From: Fibrobacter sp.
GTDB taxonomy: Bacteria; Fibrobacterota; Fibrobacteria; Fibrobacterales; Fibrobacteraceae
NCBI GenBank assembly: GCA_017520105.1
Contig: JAFWRL010000165.1
Location: 1 to 9,983, forward strand
DNA: 9,983 bases
Reading direction: 5' to 3'
Below are positions 819-9,675 of the stretch, piece by piece. The notes below the pieces were generated by a model. It ran no database searches. It was not told the DNA's origin and was given only the letters and a program-made list of their open reading frames with translations. Position 1 is the first letter of the stretch, and each line of letters begins with the position of its first letter. The translations under genes and the position numbers were made by a program.

Positions 819-1070
819 ATGACAAAACTTGACGAAATACTGACTGCAAACAACTTTAGCAACCACGACCTCGTGGAAATGATGCCTGTGAACTTGAACC
901 ACAAGATGGTGCAGAAGGCCCGCCTTGGCAAGAAGCCTGTGCCCAAGCACACGCAGGACCTGATTTTGCAGGCTTTGAACAAACGGCTTTTGCAGACCTC
1001 TGCCGAAGTCGAAGGCAAGGTCGCGAAACAGTACAAGCGCGTGGATCTTTTTGAGAGCGGTGAGTTATGA
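819..1070 (+). CDS. Small basic protein of 83 aa, possible helix-turn-helix
   Basis: I do not recognise a named gene. The protein starts MTKLDEILTANNFSNHDLVE and has a predicted all-helical, Lys-rich middle (residues about 28-58) containing HKMVQKARLGKK and then a helix ending in LQALNKR. The pattern of helix, NHDLVE, basic linker, helix resembles small conserved bacterial proteins with a DNA-binding-like fold, and I infer a nucleic-acid-binding role only tentatively. ATG 819 is preferred over the in-frame TTG at 798 because it starts the conserved-looking part and lies six bases after a -10-like hexamer; residues from the TTG would come from the pyrimidine-rich tail of the hairpin repeat. 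The last codons and the TGA stop lie within a heptad-periodic tract, so the terminal residues may be repeat-derived. Confidence 0.65.
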   Translation: MTKLDEILTANNFSNHDLVEMMPVNLNHKMVQKARLGKKPVPKHTQDLILQALNKRLLQTSAEVEGKVAKQYKRVDLFESGEL

Positions 1071-1116
1071 GCCGTGAGCGGTGAGTTTTGAATGATGCAC
1101 TGTTTGCGATGAGTCG
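1061..1116 (+). repeat. Degenerate 7-base repeat tract, consensus TGAGnnn
   Basis: In strict 7-base register from 1061 the units are TGAGTTA, TGAGCCG, TGAGCGG, TGAGTTT, TGAATGA, TGCACTG, TTTGCGA, TGAGTCG. Five of the eight begin TGAG and a sixth begins TGAA. The second unit supplies the TGA stop of the small ORF. This resembles in design the short heptamer repeats known from cyanobacteria, though the sequence differs. Confidence 0.7.
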
Positions 1117-1139
1117 TTCAGGACTATGTTACCCTTTGC

Positions 1140-1177
1140 TTTGTCATCCCGGCCTCCGTGCCGGGATCGCCTTTTTA
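1140..1177 (+). repeat. Intergenic hairpin repeat, copy 2
   Basis: Second copy of the TTTGTCATCCC...GGGATC element. The stem is ATCCCGGC (1146-1153) with GCCGGGAT (1160-1167), a perfect 8 bp with loop CTCCGT, followed four bases later by TTTTT (1172-1176). The stem plus T-run could act as a terminator. It lies directly upstream of the putative -10 of thyA. Confidence 0.78.
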
Positions 1178-1178
1178 T

Positions 1179-1184
1179 TACATT
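1179..1184 (+). promoter_or_regulatory. Putative -10 element (TACATT) for thyA
   Basis: TACATT ends six bases before the thyA ATG at 1191, the same hexamer and spacing as at 807-812. There is no Shine-Dalgarno sequence in the intervening AACAAT, so a leaderless thyA mRNA is suggested. No convincing -35 is visible; that region is occupied by the hairpin repeat. Confidence 0.5.
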
Positions 1185-1190
1185 AACAAT

Positions 1191-2003
1191 ATGCAGCAAT
1201 ACTTAGACTTACTCCAAGATATTATCGACAACGGTGTTGACCGTTCGGACCGCACTGGCACAGGTACTCGTTCCGTATTTGGCCGCCAGACTCGCTTTGA
1301 CCTTTCCAAAGGTTTCCCGTGCCTTACGACAAAGAAACTCCACCTGCGCAGCATTATTCATGAGTTGCTGTGGTTCTTGAAAGGCGATACGAATATCAAG
1401 TATCTGCACGACAACAAGGTCACGATTTGGGACGAATGGGCTGACGAAAACGGCGACTTGGGCCCGGTCTATGGGCACCAGTGGCGCAGCTGGCCGACTC
1501 CCGATGGCGGACATATCGATCAGATAGCGAACCTCATCAACAGTCTCAAGAACAACCCCGACTCGCGTAGGCATCTCGTTTGTGCGTGGAATGTCGCAGA
1601 AGTCGATAAGATGGCTTTGCCGCCTTGCCATTGCCTGTTCCAGTTCTACGTGGGCGGTGTCGGTGCTAGCGGCAAGCGTAAGCTCAGCTGTCAGCTTTAT
1701 CAGCGCAGTGCGGACATGTTCCTCGGTGTTCCGTTCAACATTGCGTCTTATTCGCTGTTGACGATAATGCTTGCTCAGGTCTGCGGTTACGAAGCAGGTG
1801 AATTTGTCCATACTTTTGGTGATTTGCATTTGTACAGCAACCACTTTGACCAGGCGCATGAACAGCTTTCGCGTACGCCGCGCAGCCTCCCGACAATGAA
1901 GATGAATCCCGATGTCAAGGATTTGTTCGATTTCAAGTTCGAAGATTTTGAACTTGTCAATTACGATCCGTGGCCGACTATCAAGGCTCCGATTGCGGTG
2001 TAA
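1191..2003 (+). CDS. thyA: Thymidylate synthase ThyA
   Basis: Makes dTMP from dUMP with methylenetetrahydrofolate, the cytosolic de novo step for DNA thymine. The 270-residue product is close to the 264 of E. coli ThyA; the excess is a six-residue insertion near 155-163. Visible family landmarks are phosphate-binding Arg21, the double Arg126-Arg127, the catalytic Cys146 in [10 protein letters not shown], the dUMP-binding block [16 protein letters not shown] (168-183, with Asn183), and His213/Tyr215 in DLHLYSNH. An in-frame upstream start at 1158 is rejected because its extra residues come from the hairpin repeat, while 1191 gives the usual N-terminus and lies six bases after a -10-like TACATT. 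The stop overlaps the next gene's start by one base (TAATG), so the phosphoesterase is probably translated by coupling. No dihydrofolate reductase gene follows, although folA often accompanies thyA in other bacteria. Confidence 0.97.
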
Positions 2004-2992
2004 TGAACACCTCGATTGATTTTATCGGCGATATTCATGGGCACTACGATGAACTCGTGGTGCTCCTTAAAAAGTTGGGCTACGAAGAACGTGGTGGCGC
2101 CTATCGCTATCCCGGAGACGCGCGGACGGTCGTCTTCTTGGGCGATTACATCGACCGTGGCAGTCAAGTGCGTGAGACGGTGAATCTCGTGCGTGCCATG
2201 CGCGATGCGGGTTCTGCCGTGGCGTTGATGGGCAATCATGAGTTTAATGCGCTCAGCTTTTGGCACGAAAATGGCGTCGGGGGGCATTACATTCATGCAA
2301 TTCGCGGAGGCTATCTGCGCGAACACGCTTTTAACAAAGTAGCGATTCACGTCAAAACCGTCGAAAGTTATCGTGGGCGTAAGGCAGAGTTCTTGGAAAT
2401 GCTGGATTTCCTAAAGACGCTCCCGTTTTATCTGGAAACAGAAACGTTCCGGGCGCAGCATGCGTGCTTTGACTTGAAAAGTGCCGAAGCACTAAAGGCG
2501 GCGGGCATCCGTTCTTTTGCAGATGGAAATTTTGATGAACTGATTGCGCGTGCGAACGACCAATATCACGAATACGCAGATTCTATTTTTGATCCGATAA
2601 ATTTGTTCTTGAAAGGCCCAGAAATGAGTTTGCCGGAAGGTTTGACGTTCCGTGATGGGGAAGGAGTGCTTCGCAAACGCACGCGAATCCGTTGGTGGAT
2701 GGACCCGAAAAATGCGAACTTGCAGCAACTGAGTTTCCAACCGGGTGTAGAGTTGCCTCCTTGCGAGGTTTCGAGCGAAGTCCAGGAACGCGATTTTTAT
2801 GGCGAAAACGAACGCCCTGTTTTCTTTGGACATTATTGGCTGTTGGGACTTCCTGAACTTATTCGAAATAACGTTTGCTGCTTGGATTACAGCGTCGCGG
2901 GCTATCGCGGTGACGGTCGTCTTGCCGCTTATCGTTTCGATGGCGAACAAAAACTCGATGCTTCCAAATTCGTCTGGGTTGACGCAATGTAG
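2003..2992 (+). CDS. Calcineurin-like metallophosphoesterase (ApaH/PrpE-like)
   Basis: A 329-residue cytosolic phosphatase with the full metallophosphoesterase signature: DIHGH (Asp10, His12), GDYIDRG (47-53, Asp48), GNHE (77-80, Asn78, His79), a later His153 and GH at 276-277. These residues bind a two-metal centre in the family. The sharp GDxxDRG/GNHE form resembles serine/threonine phosphatases and diadenosine tetraphosphatases (ApaH, PrpE), so a nucleotide or phosphoprotein substrate is plausible but unproven. Residues about 160-265 form a family-unlike insert that could shape substrate choice. ATG 2003 is chosen over an in-frame start at 1970 inside thyA, because DFIGDIHG then sits at the usual N-terminal position and the TAATG overlap explains initiation without a Shine-Dalgarno. 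Its stop TAG is the first unit of a TAGGnnn tract. Confidence 0.88.
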   Translation: MNTSIDFIGDIHGHYDELVVLLKKLGYEERGGAYRYPGDARTVVFLGDYIDRGSQVRETVNLVRAMRDAGSAVALMGNHEFNALSFWHENGVGGHYIHAIRGGYLREHAFNKVAIHVKTVESYRGRKAEFLEMLDFLKTLPFYLETETFRAQHACFDLKSAEALKAAGIRSFADGNFDELIARANDQYHEYADSIFDPINLFLKGPEMSLPEGLTFRDGEGVLRKRTRIRWWMDPKNANLQQLSFQPGVELPPCEVSSEVQERDFYGENERPVFFGHYWLLGLPELIRNNVCCLDYSVAGYRGDGRLAAYRFDGEQKLDASKFVWVDAM

Positions 2993-3031
2993 GAGTTAGG
3001 TTGTATGTCATAGGTAATAGGAAATAGCCAT
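2990..3031 (+). repeat. Degenerate 7-base repeat tract, TAGGnnn (left arm)
   Basis: Starting exactly at the TAG stop of the phosphoesterase gene, the units in strict 7-base register are TAGGAGT, TAGGTTG, TATGTCA, TAGGTAA, TAGGAAA, TAGCCAT. Four of six begin TAGG. The same consensus appears inverted at 3073-3100. Confidence 0.72.
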
Positions 3032-3066
3032 GCATTTTATGCATCTGTATAGGGCGGCGAAGCCGC
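3030..3066. repeat. Two small hairpins between inverted heptad arms
   Basis: ATGCAT (3030-3035) pairs with ATGCAT (3039-3044) around TTT, and GCGGC (3054-3058) pairs with GCCGC (3062-3066) around GAA. Both sit in the centre of the 2993-3121 intergenic space, between oppositely oriented TAGGnnn arms. The second is GC-rich but is not followed by a strong T-run, so terminator function is doubtful. Confidence 0.5.
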
Positions 3067-3072
3067 GATTCT

Positions 3073-3100
3073 TTACCTAACGCCTAATACCTAAAGCCTA
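3073..3100 (-). repeat. Degenerate 7-base repeat tract, TAGGnnn on minus strand (right arm)
   Basis: On the minus strand, read from 3100 down to 3073, the units are TAGGCTT, TAGGTAT, TAGGCGT, TAGGTAA: four perfect TAGGnnn heptads in register. On the plus strand they read as CCTAA-type units just upstream of the dgt promoter. Confidence 0.72.
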
Positions 3101-3109
3101 TAACCTTTC

Positions 3110-3115
3110 TATATT
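3110..3115 (+). promoter_or_regulatory. Putative -10 element (TATATT) for dgt
   Basis: TATATT ends six bases before the dgt ATG at 3122, matching the spacing of TACATT at 807 and 1179. The context TTTCTATATTTA also resembles TTTCTACATTTA upstream of the small ORF. No Shine-Dalgarno sequence is present, so a leaderless transcript is suggested. Confidence 0.52.
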
Positions 3116-3121
3116 TATAGC

Positions 3122-4429
3122 ATGCTTCAATGGGATACGCTTCTTTCTGCAACGCGTTATGGGCACCCGGCTGATCCGGACCCGAACCGTTCCGACTTTC
3201 ATCGCGATTACGACCGCATCGTTTTTTCTACTGCATTCCGTCGCTTAGGCCGCAAGACTCAGGTTCATCCGTTCTCAGTGAACGACCATGTGCATAGCCG
3301 CCTTACGCACAGCTTGGAAGTTTCAAGCGTGGGCCGTAGCCTTGCGATTACTGTGTATCACTTGATTAAAAAGTATTTGCCGAAGTATGTGAACGAATAT
3401 CAGTTCGGGACGATTGTGCAATCGGCATGCCTCGCTCATGACATTGGCAATCCGCCGTTCGGTCACGCAGGTGAAGCCGCTATTCGTGAATGGTTCCGCA
3501 AAAATCGCAATTCCGCACCGATGGCTGAACTTCGCGAAAAGGAAATTGCGGACTTCGAAAATTTTGACGGCAACGCGCAAGGCCATCGCATCTTGAGCAA
3601 GTTGGAATACCATTTCCTCGATGGCGGCATGCGCCTTACGTATGCGACGATTGGTTCCATGATCAAGTATCCGCGTCTTGCTCATTACGGCTGCCCAACG
3701 AGTTTATTCCAAACAGAGGCGGAACTTTATCGTGAAACAGCCGAGGTCCTTGGCATTCCGGAAATCAAGAACGGCGTGTGGGCTCGCCATCCGTTGGTTT
3801 ATCTGATGGAAGCGGCGGACGACATTTGCTATTCCATCCTCGATGTCGAAGACGCTATTGAACTTGGGATTCTCACGTTCGGTGATGTGCGCGACATGTT
3901 TATTTATCTATGTGGCCCTGACGTTGATATCGATCGCGAATTCGAAGAAAACGGCCAAAACTTTAGGGATTTTCTCAGCAGTATCCGTGGACACGCTATC
4001 CAGAACCTGATTGACGACGTGGCCGTTCTTTTCGTCAAAAATTACGACCGCATCATGGAAGGGACTCTCGATAAACACTTGATAGACCTTTCCCGTTCGG
4101 ATACGATGGAAGGCATCCGCATCGCAAAGCGCCTTGGAGTTGAACGTATTTACCCGGACCGCCGCAAGACGGAACTCGAAGTCGGTAGCTACACGACGCT
4201 CAGCACCGTGCTCGACGCGTTTATCAATGGCGTCTATGACTATCGCCAGAACGGGCGTAATTCGTACCGTGCAAGCCGCATCGTGCGCCTTATCGGTCAG
4301 GCGAAAATCGGCCAGAGCGTAACGACCGCGGAAGCTTACCATCAGGTGCTCGACTTCGTAAGCGGCATGACGGACAATTACGCCACATATCTCGCTCGTC
4401 AAATTGGCGGGCTCGCGATGGGATATTAA
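3122..4429 (+). CDS. dgt: Deoxyguanosinetriphosphate triphosphohydrolase (dGTPase-like HD enzyme)
   Basis: A 435-residue HD-superfamily hydrolase of the dGTPase group, which cleaves dNTPs to deoxynucleoside and triphosphate. The N-terminus has the family block DFHRDYDRIVFSTAFRRLGR (25-44) followed by KTQV. The metal ligands of an HD site are visible: His63 in SRLTHSLEV, His106-Asp107 in CLAHDIGNPPFGHAGE, and Asp233/Asp234 in AADDICY. The length is shorter than E. coli Dgt (505 residues) and suits the wider dGTPase-like family, whose substrates and allosteric dNTP activators vary, so strict dGTP specificity is not assured. ATG 3122 opens the conserved N-terminus and lies six bases after a TATATT hexamer with no Shine-Dalgarno. 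The HAD gene starts 12 bases after its stop. Together with thyA it points to dNTP pool control. Confidence 0.93.
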   Translation: MLQWDTLLSATRYGHPADPDPNRSDFHRDYDRIVFSTAFRRLGRKTQVHPFSVNDHVHSRLTHSLEVSSVGRSLAITVYHLIKKYLPKYVNEYQFGTIVQSACLAHDIGNPPFGHAGEAAIREWFRKNRNSAPMAELREKEIADFENFDGNAQGHRILSKLEYHFLDGGMRLTYATIGSMIKYPRLAHYGCPTSLFQTEAELYRETAEVLGIPEIKNGVWARHPLVYLMEAADDICYSILDVEDAIELGILTFGDVRDMFIYLCGPDVDIDREFEENGQNFRDFLSSIRGHAIQNLIDDVAVLFVKNYDRIMEGTLDKHLIDLSRSDTMEGIRIAKRLGVERIYPDRRKTELEVGSYTTLSTVLDAFINGVYDYRQNGRNSYRASRIVRLIGQAKIGQSVTTAEAYHQVLDFVSGMTDNYATYLARQIGGLAMGY

Positions 4430-4441
4430 GAGGTTTGTTTC

Positions 4442-5140
4442 GTGAGCGCGCTGGATATCGGCATTAGAAACGACTCTTCGAAAATTTGGTTGTTCGATTA
4501 CGACTTGACGCTTTACGGCGAAGAGGAACGTTTTGTCCTCAATTCTCTCGATCACCGCATTGCTGAATTTGTCCAGAAAACAGTCGGCGGATCTTTTGAA
4601 GGCGCAACAGAAATCCGCAAGGATTATCTAGTCCGTTTCGGTACGACGCTTGCGGGGCTCATGGCGATGAACGGCACACTGCCCGACGATTTTTTCGACT
4701 TTATCCATGAGCCGGAATACTTGATTTATCCGAAGGTGGCGCCCGAAAAGTTGTCGTTTTTGCAAAGTCTCAATGGCCACCGCTACGTGTTTACGAACGG
4801 GCGAGGGGACTGGAGCCGTGCCGGCATGGCGCACATGCAGATTGATTCCGCTATCGAGGATGTTTTTGACCTCAGGATGATGGATTGGGAAGGCAAACCG
4901 CATGCGAGCGCCTACGAAAAAATGGAAAAGTGGCTGGAGTCGCGTGATGTCCTCGACAAAAAATGCCCTGATAAAACGCAAATTGTGCTACTCGAAGATT
5001 CACTTCGCAACCTTGAACCCGCCCATGAACGCGGCTGGACGACCGTTCTCGTGAATCCGAACATCCAAGCGCCCGGCTGGGTGGATTTTCACATCCCGCA
5101 TTTGCTAAATTTACGGGAGAAACTTATCCCTAACCCCTAA
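4442..5140 (+). CDS. HAD-superfamily hydrolase, pyrimidine 5'-nucleotidase-like
   Basis: A 232-residue cytosolic phosphatase with all four HAD motifs: FDYDLTL (Asp19 nucleophile, Asp21 acid/base, Thr23), Thr118 in VFTNGRGDW, Lys152 in GKPH, and LLEDSLRNL with Glu185/Asp186. The FDYDLTLY start and the helical cap between motifs I and II match the pyrimidine 5'-nucleotidase type (yeast Sdt1-like), which dephosphorylates UMP/CMP-like nucleotides. The subfamily is likely and the exact substrate uncertain. The start is GTG at 4442, eight bases after an AAGAGG Shine-Dalgarno (4428-4433) that overlaps the dgt stop, so the gene is probably co-translated with dgt. Its TAA stop is part of a CCTAAnn heptad tract that also fills the gap to the permease gene. 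Confidence 0.85.
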   Translation: MSALDIGIRNDSSKIWLFDYDLTLYGEEERFVLNSLDHRIAEFVQKTVGGSFEGATEIRKDYLVRFGTTLAGLMAMNGTLPDDFFDFIHEPEYLIYPKVAPEKLSFLQSLNGHRYVFTNGRGDWSRAGMAHMQIDSAIEDVFDLRMMDWEGKPHASAYEKMEKWLESRDVLDKKCPDKTQIVLLEDSLRNLEPAHERGWTTVLVNPNIQAPGWVDFHIPHLLNLREKLIPNP

Positions 5141-5149
5141 AACTTAATC
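5129..5149 (+). repeat. Short 7-base repeat tract, CCTAAnn
   Basis: Three units in register, CCTAACC, CCTAAAA and CTTAATC, end directly at the permease ATG (5150). TAA recurs every seven bases (5131, 5138, 5145), and the TAA at 5138 is the stop of the HAD gene. The consensus equals the plus-strand reading of the 3073-3105 tract. Confidence 0.5.
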
Positions 5150-5956
5150 ATGCTCGACTTACTTTCCATGGATTTTATGCAGAATGCGCTGATCGCAGCG
5201 GTGCTTGTCGCCTTTGCCTGTGGCGTCATGGGAACGTATGTTGTCGTGAATCGCCTCGTTTCGCTTTCGGGCGGCGTGGCGCACGCTTCTTTTGGCGGAG
5301 TCGGGCTGGCATGCTTTATCGGTTTTTCGCCGATGCTAGGCTCGCTTGGCTTTGCGCTTGCCTGCGCGATGCTTATGGGCGCTCTCACGTGGCGTGACCG
5401 CAAACACTCCGACACGTTCATCGGGATTATCTGGGCGGCGGGCATGGCGCTGGGCGTGATTCTCACGGACCTGACGCCGGGTTACAGTGGCGAGATGATG
5501 AGTTTCTTGTTCGGTAGCCTTCTGACCGTCCCGACGGAACTTCTCTGGTGGATGGGTGCGTTGCTCGTGTTCATCTTGGCTTCGGTATCCATTTGCTACC
5601 GCAATTTCCTTTCGATTTCGTACGACCCCGAGTTTGCCCGTGTCCGCGGCATTCCCGTGTTGAATTATTATATGCTCTTGATTGCGCTCATTGCCCTCAC
5701 GGTCGTGATTGCCGTGCAGGCGGTGGGCATGATTTTGGTTATCGCGCTTTTGACGATTCCGGCGTACATCGCGGAATGCTACGCCAAGAACCTGTCGCAA
5801 ATGATGCTGATTTCGGTTGGCGTTTCACTCGTTCTCGTTGTGCTTGGACTTTTGGTCGCGTGCCAGCTGAATTTTGTCGTAGGCCCCACGATTATTGCTG
5901 GCGGAGTCGTTTTGTATTTGCTAAACTTTTTAGTGAAAAAGATTGTAAAAAAATAG
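5150..5956 (+). CDS. Metal ABC transporter permease, ABC-3 family (ZnuB/MntB type)
   Basis: A 268-residue, strongly hydrophobic inner-membrane protein with about seven to nine membrane segments, close to the length of E. coli ZnuB (261). The N-terminal block, QNALIAA through GTYVVVNR, LSGGVAHASFGGVGL and the central GSLLTVP match ABC-3 permeases for zinc, manganese or iron; metal choice cannot be read from the sequence. Such a permease needs an ATPase (ZnuC-like) and a periplasmic binding protein (ZnuA-like). Neither is adjacent, so they must lie elsewhere or upstream of another locus. The ATG at 5150 is nine bases after the HAD stop with no good Shine-Dalgarno, so coupling or read-through expression is likely. 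A secreted protein gene follows after 10 bases. Confidence 0.9.
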   Translation: MLDLLSMDFMQNALIAAVLVAFACGVMGTYVVVNRLVSLSGGVAHASFGGVGLACFIGFSPMLGSLGFALACAMLMGALTWRDRKHSDTFIGIIWAAGMALGVILTDLTPGYSGEMMSFLFGSLLTVPTELLWWMGALLVFILASVSICYRNFLSISYDPEFARVRGIPVLNYYMLLIALIALTVVIAVQAVGMILVIALLTIPAYIAECYAKNLSQMMLISVGVSLVLVVLGLLVACQLNFVVGPTIIAGGVVLYLLNFLVKKIVKK

Positions 5957-7170: not shown

Positions 7171-7209
7171 CTTGTCATCCCGTGCACCGTCATGGGATCA
7201 TCTTTTTAT
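7171..7209 (+). repeat. Intergenic hairpin repeat, copy 3
   Basis: Third copy of the YTTGTCATCCC...GGGATC element. The stem is ATCCCGTG (7177-7184) with CATGGGAT (7191-7198), 8 bp including one G-U pair, loop CACCGT, and TTTTT starts at 7203. Loop and flanks match copy 2. Unlike copies 1 and 2 it is about 110 bases from the next start codon, so here it looks more like a transcript end than part of a promoter. Confidence 0.72.
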
Positions 7210-7318: not shown

Positions 7319-8863
7319 ATGTGTTACAAGTGGATTTTTTTATTAGGGTTATCTGCCATGCTTGGTGCATGCTCGCAGACTGTTGATTCGTTTGACGATG
7401 AGGATTCTCTCGAAATAAGCAGTTCCGCTAAAAAAGGAGCTAGTTCTAGCAGCAAAGGCGGCAAAGCAACGAGTAGTGCAACGGAAGAACCTGATGAGGA
7501 TTGCGTCGGTGAACCGGGTACGGTATGGGACGGTACGACCGCAAAAAATTTTGCGTGTGGTGCAGGAACCAAGCTCAGCCCGTATGTGATTCTGACGGCA
7601 GAGCAGTTGGCAAAGTTGTCTTTTGTCATTGGAGCAAACGACAAAGCGTATCAAGGCAAATACTACAAGTTGGGTGCGGATATTGTGCTCAACAAGGGTA
7701 AAATAATTGACGACAAGGGTGGCTTGGTTGCGGATTCCGCAAAACTCCACAAGTGGACTCCCATCGGAAATTCCAGCGTCTCGTTCACTGGTACGTTTGA
7801 TGGCGACGGACATTCGGTGAGTGGAATGTTCATCAATACAACTAGTACGCATAATGGATTGTTCGGGAATAGTAGCGGAACAGTGCAAAATGTAACTGTG
7901 GAGAACTCTTGGGTGAGCGGTGGTGATCGAAGCGCTGGTGTCTTGGGTGTTTTAAGAGGTGCTGGTATTATAAAAGGTGCTATAAATAAAGCCTCTGTTA
8001 TTGGAGTAGGAAATGCAACGGGTGGTGTTGTTGGTGCATATGAATCCGTATGTTGTAATAATGTTGGAGTTATAGAAAATGTTGAAAATTATGGATTGAT
8101 TTCTGGATCCAAAACTGTTGGTGGCGTTATTGGTAGTGGAACAAATATAAGAATAACTAATGCAATAAATTATAATGAAATTATAGGTACTGCGGGCACT
8201 GGAGGTATAGCTGGTTCATTAGGTAGTAATTCTGTTTTAATGAATGCTGAAAATAAAGGAAACATTTCGGGAAAAGAGGGGACTGCTGGCATTGCTGGTT
8301 ACTTTGGATATGTGTATTCATGTTCAACGAATAGTAAACAAGCTACATTAAAGGGTGCAAAAAATAGTGGTTATGTAGAGGGCGCGAAATATACTGCAGG
8401 AATTGTTGGAAAGAATGATTGTTCTGCTAATTCAACGTTGTCAAATGATGGCTCTATTATAGGAACTTTTTATACTGCGGGTGTTTTTGGTTATGCCAAA
8501 AACTCGAATACTGAATTTGCTTATAATGTGGGAAATGTATTGGGTGACACGTATGTTGGTGGAATTGCTGGTTATAATGAAGTTGGTGTAAGTCAATCCA
8601 TTTACAGTACCGGCAAAGTCGATGGTGATTCCCTTGTAGGCTTGATGATTGGCTATAATTTCAACACCACAATGGCTGATTACTATTACCTCAAACAAGG
8701 CGACCAAGAACCATTTGGACAAAATAACGGTGGCGGAGTCGCGACTCCCAAAACCGAAAAAGAAATGAAATCTAAAAAATTTGCTGAACTCCTCGGTGAT
8801 GATTTCGTTTATGATTCTGGCTTGAATGATGGCTATCCTGTATTGAATTGGGAAAAGGAATAA
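7319..8863 (+). CDS. Surface lipoprotein with eight GLUG-like repeats
   Basis: A 514-residue lipoprotein. The signal peptide ends in lipobox LGAC with lipidated Cys18, followed by an acidic stretch and a Ser/Lys-rich linker (33-55) typical of Fibrobacter-type exported lipoproteins. Residues about 60-185 are an ordered head with Cys62/Cys80 and a TFDGDGHSVSGMF block common before GLUG repeats. Residues 223-450 hold eight copies of a pattern like NxGxIxG-(4 to 6)-GGIAGY, with the Asn-like position at 223, 257, 284, 312, 349, 376, 403 and 430; the last three steps are exactly 27. This predicts a beta-solenoid. The C-terminal DSGLNDGYPVLNW (499-511) is a usual GLUG-protein ending. Adhesion or ligand binding is inferred. 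Start ATG 7319 follows GGAGA by five bases. The repeat-coding part is very AT-rich. The NERD gene starts two bases after the stop. Confidence 0.87.
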   Translation: MCYKWIFLLGLSAMLGACSQTVDSFDDEDSLEISSSAKKGASSSSKGGKATSSATEEPDEDCVGEPGTVWDGTTAKNFACGAGTKLSPYVILTAEQLAKLSFVIGANDKAYQGKYYKLGADIVLNKGKIIDDKGGLVADSAKLHKWTPIGNSSVSFTGTFDGDGHSVSGMFINTTSTHNGLFGNSSGTVQNVTVENSWVSGGDRSAGVLGVLRGAGIIKGAINKASVIGVGNATGGVVGAYESVCCNNVGVIENVENYGLISGSKTVGGVIGSGTNIRITNAINYNEIIGTAGTGGIAGSLGSNSVLMNAENKGNISGKEGTAGIAGYFGYVYSCSTNSKQATLKGAKNSGYVEGAKYTAGIVGKNDCSANSTLSNDGSIIGTFYTAGVFGYAKNSNTEFAYNVGNVLGDTYVGGIAGYNEVGVSQSIYSTGKVDGDSLVGLMIGYNFNTTMADYYYLKQGDQEPFGQNNGGGVATPKTEKEMKSKKFAELLGDDFVYDSGLNDGYPVLNWEKE

Positions 8864-9616: not shown

Positions 9617-9675
9617 TTTTCTCCCCCCATAAAGCAAAAATGTAGGGAGAAAACTTGAAAATGGGGGGAGAAAAC
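9617..9675. repeat. 14-bp perfect inverted repeat with an internal competing arm
   Basis: TTTTCTCCCCCCAT (9617-9630) is exactly complementary to ATGGGGGGAGAAAA (9661-9674) across a 30-base loop. The loop contains a second copy of GGGAGAAAAC (9645-9654; outer copy 9666-9675), which could pair with TTTTCTCCC instead. It begins two bases after the NERD stop. No T-run follows on either strand, so it is not a canonical terminator. Confidence 0.7.

Follow-up and report, generated by a model that had tools for sequence, protein, structure and literature searches.

The window described here is a 9,983-nt stretch of Fibrobacter sp. DNA (positions 1 to 9,983 of contig JAFWRL010000165.1, assembly GCA_017520105.1) in which tracts of tandem 7-nt units (heptads) run into the ends of three genes, and one of these tracts is an arm of a dispersed palindromic element that we call the R1 type (2990-3108). 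Pfam searches assigned a thymidylate synthase (1191-2003), a calcineurin-like phosphoesterase (2003-2992), an HD-domain protein (3122-4429) and an ABC-3 transport protein (5150-5956). The open reading frames (ORFs) at 819-1070 and 4442-5140 had no Pfam match. The element and all tracts are given on the plus strand. Tract A (1053-1099; lag-7 score 11.0) is a single AG-type arm of TGAGnnn heptads, and locus L001 has the same tract. TGAG is found at 1061, 1068, 1075 and 1082, TGA at 1089 and TGAG again at 1110; the units at 1096 and 1103 break the pattern and regularity ends at about 1091. The stop codon TGA 1068-1070 lies inside tract A, and no CT-type partner was found before 1191. Tract B (2990-3027; score 12.2) is a left arm of TAGGnnn heptads having TAGG at 2990, 2997, 3011 and 3018, TATG at 3004 and TAG at 3025, and its first three bases, TAG 2990-2992, are the stop codon of the upstream ORF (1970-2992). 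The inverted partner of tract B, a right arm of CCTAnnn heptads (3076-3108; score 11.0), lies 13 nt upstream of the start codon at 3122. Tract C (5128-5149) is a short CT-type tract reading CCTAACC, CCTAAAA and CTTAATC over 5129-5149, and contains the stop codon TAA 5138-5140.

The window contains three lag-7 segments scoring at least 11 (1053-1099, 2990-3027 and 3076-3108) and none at the other lags from 4 to 17, save one at lag 14, a harmonic. In 200 first-order Markov simulations the mean number of such lag-7 segments was 0.005 and the maximum was 1. Tract C scores 7.4 (5123-5147), about the score of an unrelated place (8736-8777; 7.0) and non-significant when taken alone; it is backed by the orthologous loci L003 and L055, where this gene end has longer CCTANNN tracts. 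An earlier note on this DNA had described tracts A, B and C as three 7-base repeats, each including the stop codon of the gene upstream. The tracts and stops are where that note placed them and A and B are strong, whereas C is weak by itself; the strict register given for tract A up to 1116 fails at the two units off pattern, and the inverted partner at 3076-3108 had been overlooked.

Period 7 was genus-wide and not confined to this window. We retrieved 62 Fibrobacterota loci and 18 loci of other bacteria via the HD-domain protein and counted 4-mers repeated four times at one spacing. The 62 loci gave 140 occurrences at spacing 7, 0-1 at spacings 5, 6, 8-13 and 15-20, and 18 and 14 at the harmonics 14 and 21, respectively, whereas the 18 non-Fibrobacterota loci gave a single occurrence at spacing 7. 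No heptad tract was found in 11 more distant loci. A 400-kb sample of the nearest genome contained 30 intergenic and no coding lag-7 segments (score at least 11), with totals of 0-5 segments at lags 5, 8, 10, 11 and 13. In 1.02 Mb of near Fibrobacter sequence 100 tracts were intergenic and 13 coding, a split that rests on our own gene caller, which reads through stop-free tracts. The check proposed in the earlier note, a search for 7-base periodicity in relatives, found it genus-wide and mainly between genes, not equally common inside them. The suspicion that more than one spreading sequence was involved also held, in that 171 orientable tracts among 174 distinct ones had 93 consensus units. 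One locus (L005, 8063-8214) has a 152-nt 7-periodic run that passes through the units TTAATTT, CCACTAA and CCTAACC, and perhaps consists of nested elements.

The tracts are ordered within intergenic gaps. Of 962 gaps, 689 were tandem, 112 convergent and 161 divergent, and tracts were present in 108, 13 and 19 of these, respectively; an early impression that convergent gaps were richer and divergent gaps poorer vanished with the larger sample. AG-type tracts lay in the left and right halves of gaps in 67 and 22 cases and CT-type tracts in 14 and 76 (Fisher P 2e-16, which is optimistic owing to near-duplicate orthologs such as L005/L007 and L038/L039/L059). AG preceded CT in 32 gaps and followed it in one. 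Arms of the same gap were more complementary (mean 12.6 for 34 pairs, some of which are orthologs) than arms taken from different gaps (8.9 for 212 pairs; P 1.6e-5, likewise optimistic). This polarity, together with the same-gap complementarity, argues that tracts are often the arms of inverted repeats, irrespective of gene direction.

One of these inverted repeats is the R1 element of about 117 nt, which consists of five TAGGnnn heptads, a two-hairpin core and five CCTAnnn heptads. With DNA 2990-3121 as query, 30 of the 80 genus genomes gave matches, many of them nearly full-length and located at several sites within one genome. A covariance model (covering 2991-3106 of the window copy) extended this to 58 of the 80, seven of which had at least 46 matches each, and to 70 of 167 genomes across the phylum. 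Within the genus, R1 was absent from G002, G004, G005, G011, G037 and G078 and its counts were high in G009, G014, G019, G043, G060, G072 and G074. No genome outside the genus among those 167 had a best E-value below 1e-9. Weak matches, 7-17 each with best E-values of 1e-6 to 7e-9, were seen in three genomes of the same class (G156, G157 and G162) and one of the same order (G122), and are possibly distant heptad palindromes beyond the genus. In an alignment of 31 copies AGG recurs about five times and CCT about five times at a fixed 7-nt spacing with two hairpins between, the length is near constant and the nnn letters vary. AGG pairs with CCT between the inverse-polarity arms in nearly all 31 copies, and since these pairs scarcely vary they add nothing by covariation. 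The covariation was all in the two hairpins of the core, where 8 pairs and 25 cells had changes on both sides; the corresponding counts were 3.1 and 5.1 in shuffled controls and 1-5 and 1-6 in slid controls. Hairpin 1 (3030-3044) has a 6-bp stem and a 3-nt loop, and all six pairs were changed on both sides among the 31 copies. Hairpin 2 (3053-3067; GGCGGCGAAGCCGCG) has a 5-bp GCGGC/GCCGC stem that is common to elements with other heptad arms. In loci L005, L007 and L141 a 51-nt insertion lies inside hairpin 2 of an otherwise near-identical orthologous element. Rfam gave no match in the window with an E-value of 1 or less.

Hairpin 2 connects R1 to other families. In the sampled sequence seven of nine GGCGGCnnnGCCGCG sites had a lag-7 flank; the two exceptions are nearly identical to each other, both come from genome G005, and look coding. 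Of 20 further sites chosen by the core alone, every one had a lag-7 flank on one or both sides, with 0-2 at each other lag. Their units were varied (such as AATTATG, TTGATGA, TAGTAAA and GTAGACA), and 12 of the 20 were in genomes having fewer than 10 CCTANNN triplets. The core pattern occurred in 59 of 80 genus genomes, reversed controls giving none, and in the phylum search at one site in each of three non-genus genomes. The 7-nt period and the core are constant and the letters of the unit are not. The R1 element is one family of a Fibrobacter superfamily whose members have the core hairpin GGCGGCnnnGCCGCGATT and the 7-nt period in common, whereas the heptad letters differ from family to family. 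When 26 arm pairs lying 8-130 nt apart were examined, 14 enclosed a hairpin of at least 5 bp versus 2.8 expected (a comparison that also includes the near-duplicate orthologs) and six enclosed GCGGCnnnGCCGC, which argues that other families have other cores or no recognizable core. Tracts A and C probably belong to this superfamily too, as lone or degraded arms.

The position of the element relative to genes was examined with 62 full copies from which orthologous duplicates had been removed, both neighbors being called for 60; these copies came from the best-scoring matches and the gene ends from our own caller. On stop-facing sides the element tip was within -10 to +5 nt of the gene end in 48 of 65 cases, and in 16 of the 65 the stop was formed by a T plus the AG of the element; on start-facing sides tips were this close in only 6 of 57. 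Tips at 0 to +5 alone made up 27 of the 65, compared with 3.8% of intergenic positions in gaps lacking tracts. Besides the element, a median of 23 nt remained in 43 tandem gaps and 21.5 nt in 10 convergent gaps (length-weighted background medians 258 and 281), and 247 nt in the seven divergent gaps (background 290). Eleven tandem gaps had more than 60 nt left, and in these eight copies were flush with the stop, none with the start and three with neither. Many copies lie 3-28 nt 5' of the next start. TATAAT/TATATT-like hexamers about 6 nt 5' of the ATG were seen in the window (3109-3121) and in L003, L005, L007, L009 and L046; these could reflect leaderless mRNAs, with the heptad tract occupying the place of the upstream promoter part.

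Such stop-flush positions would also be expected if the main reason for retention of the elements were a role in the transcript, as terminators or stabilizers of its 3' end. The fold of the window copy (z -3.0 as RNA, -2.1 as DNA) is consistent with this, as are the repetitive extragenic palindromes (REPs) that adjoin ORF 3' ends elsewhere (PMC3733652, in the portion of that report considered here), and a transcript function is compatible with a mobile origin. However, in element orientation the neighboring genes were ++ in 18, -- in 25, +- in 10 and -+ in 7 of the 60 copies. Thus, the element occurs in both orientations, tandem pairs show no bias (18 versus 25) of the kind that an intrinsic terminator tied to the upstream gene would have, seven copies are in divergent gaps and many are just upstream of a start. 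We therefore regard retention for a transcript function as rather unlikely.

Orthologous junctions gave a view of sites with and without these sequences. At the L199 junction we compared 30 orthologs in which the upstream gene end was 85-100% identical. Eleven sites were empty, with gaps of 6-12 nt that always followed TAA (in five of these the final three bases are perhaps a GTG start). The other 19 comprised 13 with a flagged heptad tract, four heptad-like by eye and two with other sequence, and 10 of the 19 had TAG stops versus none of the 11 empty sites. The fillings included the R1 element twice (both with TAG), GTAGACA/ACTTCCN arms around a like core six times and TAGTGGC arms plus core once, as well as CTTAGAA, TTCGGAATT and TGAGCTA types. 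At the L213 junction the next gene was placed in 23 orthologs, none of which had a gap below 46 nt, so that replacement but no empty site was seen. Relative to loci L005 and L007 the window element is 97-100% identical (the 51-nt core insertion aside), whereas flanking gene segments are 76-92% identical. Relative to L001 the flanking genes are 95-99% identical, the element is missing and about 1.25 kb stands in its place. These comparisons may reflect exchange of whole gaps. The replacement stretch (L001 4749-6000 and L046 4742-6000) contains a small reading frame whose beginning resembles that of a secreted protein.

Gap lengths in orthologs bear on the suggestion in the earlier note that the tracts are products of replication slippage, and thus on the possibility that they are heptanucleotide microsatellites. 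Slippage with a preferred 7-nt step would make tandem heptads that are kept out of genes, since 7 is not divisible by 3. The tracts do avoid coding sequence, period 7 is common in bacterial simple repeats (PMC4679880 and PMC4692102, as far as the parts consulted go), and only 30 of 166 tracts had columns more uneven than expected from uniform decay (P<0.05). In one ortholog group (L254, L257 and L262, with TTAATTT and TCTCGTC tracts) lengths differed by 7, 14 and 35 nt, as slippage predicts. In contrast, clean ortholog pairs with R1, GTAGACA or TGAGCTA arms differed by only 0-1 nt, and neither the inverse-polarity paired arms, the covarying core between them nor the dispersed near-full-length copies would be products of slippage. 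Other pairs had mixed gap lengths (such as 32, 27, 37, 65 and 69) that followed no single rule. Slippage was thus seen in one ortholog group but not in the arms of fixed length: slippage may act in long uniform tracts and dispersal elsewhere, and microsatellites as the general explanation seem improbable.

The tracts do supply stop codons, and often the last few codons, as the earlier note had proposed. In orthologs of ORF 4442-5140 the stop varies with the tract, being TAA in the window, L003, L055 and L008, TGA in L001 and TAG in L046, and the last residues also differ with the tract and are rewritten between close relatives. Together with the TAA of empty and the frequent TAG of filled L199 sites, this is what the alignment of ortholog ends suggested in that note has yielded. 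A further proposal, that heptads with embedded stop triplets are designed as a barrier blocking read-through in every frame, fared less well. Stops in all three frames were indeed more frequent than in column-permuted tracts (0.688 versus 0.521 on the AG strand and 0.403 versus 0.232 on the other; none of 300 permutations reached the observed values), also when weighted by class (0.647 versus 0.545 and 0.478 versus 0.290). In 89 unit classes TAG was the most enriched of the 64 triplets, AGG and TTA were also up, and the flush genes stopped at TAG in 34 of 56 cases (TAA 18, TGA 4), twice the background (30.3% of 687). However, TGA and TAA ranked 32 and 52 and were not enriched; therefore a barrier purpose is unsupported. 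Stop triplets are missing from that strand in several families, such as GAGAGAC (four tracts) and CAGGTTT (one), tracts occur in divergent gaps where there is no gene end, and the core and inverted arm have no role in such a barrier. We tentatively attribute the three-frame excess largely to dominance of the TAGG family. Tracts overlapped 58 stop codons (176 boundaries) and 14 start codons (190 boundaries), where uniform placement would give about 46 of each. The large effect is therefore the avoidance of starts, and the stop excess is slight. We read the stop pattern as dominance of the TAGG unit plus start avoidance, a stop arising whenever an ORF enters a 7-periodic tract, and consider maintenance for three-frame blocking very improbable.

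Dispersed copies of near-constant architecture with a covarying core, found in both orientations with tips flush at stops, and absent from some orthologous sites, lead us to think it likely that the tracts are mostly arms of a dispersed non-coding palindromic element, one that is probably mobile or recombining and lies flush at gene 3' ends. Tract B and 3076-3108 would then be the two arms of one small element: about five heptads, the hairpin core and about five complementary heptads. Such an element would be non-autonomous and copied by machinery other than its own. It would either be inserted at gene 3' ends or be kept there, and its TAG, or some other triplet in frame, would serve as the stop of the gene as a consequence of the ORF entering the tract and not as its purpose. 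A bolder form of this proposal is possible, if somewhat unlikely: a dispersed element recognized by its lengths and not by its sequence, with a fixed hairpin core and arms of about five units that are exactly 7 nt long and almost free in letters. Its machinery would read or write DNA in 7-nt steps and put the element at gene 3' ends, so that stop codons are rewritten. A protein that binds at 7-nt steps or iterative copying of a short template would be candidates for such machinery.

Several observations weigh against a mobile stop-flush element. No insertion was caught within a single species, and when local sequence was searched for matching arms separated by 350-4000 nt, two candidates emerged with no transposase by eye, neither convincing as a larger element with the same arms. 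Divergent gaps, which lack stops, were not clearly depleted (7 of 60 copies versus 98 of 625 background gaps), which argues that a stop is not required for insertion. The Y1_Tnp domain (PF01797) was present in 27 of 80 genomes, among them G013, G067 and G072, and absent from the element-rich G009, G014, G019, G043, G060 and G074; mobilization by Y1 transposases of the REP-associated (RAYT) type is thus unsupported. The slippage-like differences in one ortholog group, the three-frame excess and the provenance of the position set count on the same side. Telomerase-like copying by an RVT_1 protein was also rejected: RVT_1 was found in 18 of 80 genomes, including G009, G014 and G019, and was missing from the rich G043, G053, G060, G067, G072, G074 and G076. 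The distribution of the elements thus follows that of neither the Y1 transposase nor the reverse transcriptase.

Other repeats are present in the window. A second family of intergenic palindromes (GTCATCCC...GGGAT) occurs at 764-800, 1141-1176 and 7177-7208; a T run follows two of the three copies, which are terminator-like, and the family is also found in gaps of relatives (L008 and the L247-L262 junctions). An inverted repeat at 9621-9670 consists of CTCCCCCCAT and ATGGGGGGAG about 30 nt apart with TGTAGGGAGAAAA in between.

A constant core and 7-nt period with interchangeable letters separates period from sequence, and why bacterial intergenic repeats favor heptads becomes testable in one genus with many genomes and clean empty sites. 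As these repeats rewrite gene ends and stop codons, they are also relevant to annotating and comparing the 3' ends of rumen Fibrobacter genes. A literature search, made up mostly of titles and the openings of abstracts and covering few subscription papers, gave no title on such elements in Fibrobacter. An attC site was considered and set aside, as its arm polarity seemed opposite. Heptad repeats are described in the parts of two reports considered here: TAACTGA in Beggiatoaceae, intergenic, with 13 sets overlapping the upstream stop and stops in three frames (PMC4679880), and GGGAATC in Xanthomonas and GGGGA(C/T)T in Nostoc (PMC4692102). Those tandem 7-nt units are intergenic like ours, but as described there each organism has one unit, whereas one Fibrobacter genome has many, and here the arms are paired and complementary and the hairpin core is shared. 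The inverse-polarity arms resemble the terminal inverted repeats of miniature inverted-repeat transposable elements (MITEs). The BrickBuilt MITE of Porphyromonas gingivalis (23-nt unit, 49-591 nt from genes, 19 copies in one strain; PMC4596501, seen in part) likewise has tandem repeats within a multicopy, intergenic miniature inverted-repeat element, although from that account its repeats are not the two inverted arms. The GTAG-type REPs, by the consulted part of PMC3733652, are dispersed high-copy intergenic palindromes of 20-40 bp near ORF 3' ends that bear a GTAG tag, are associated with RAYT transposases and often provide a TAG stop by their termini. Like them, the Fibrobacter elements adjoin ORF 3' ends and give TAG (the 48 of 65 tips within -10 to +5, and the 16 that make the stop); unlike them, they are about 117 nt long with 7-periodic arms and two core hairpins and have no GTAG tag, the tips being T-AGG or other letters with a base before TAG that varies between copies. 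Hence, the Fibrobacter elements act like REP and MITE repeats, yet have neither the size, the tag nor the transposase features of GTAG-REPs.

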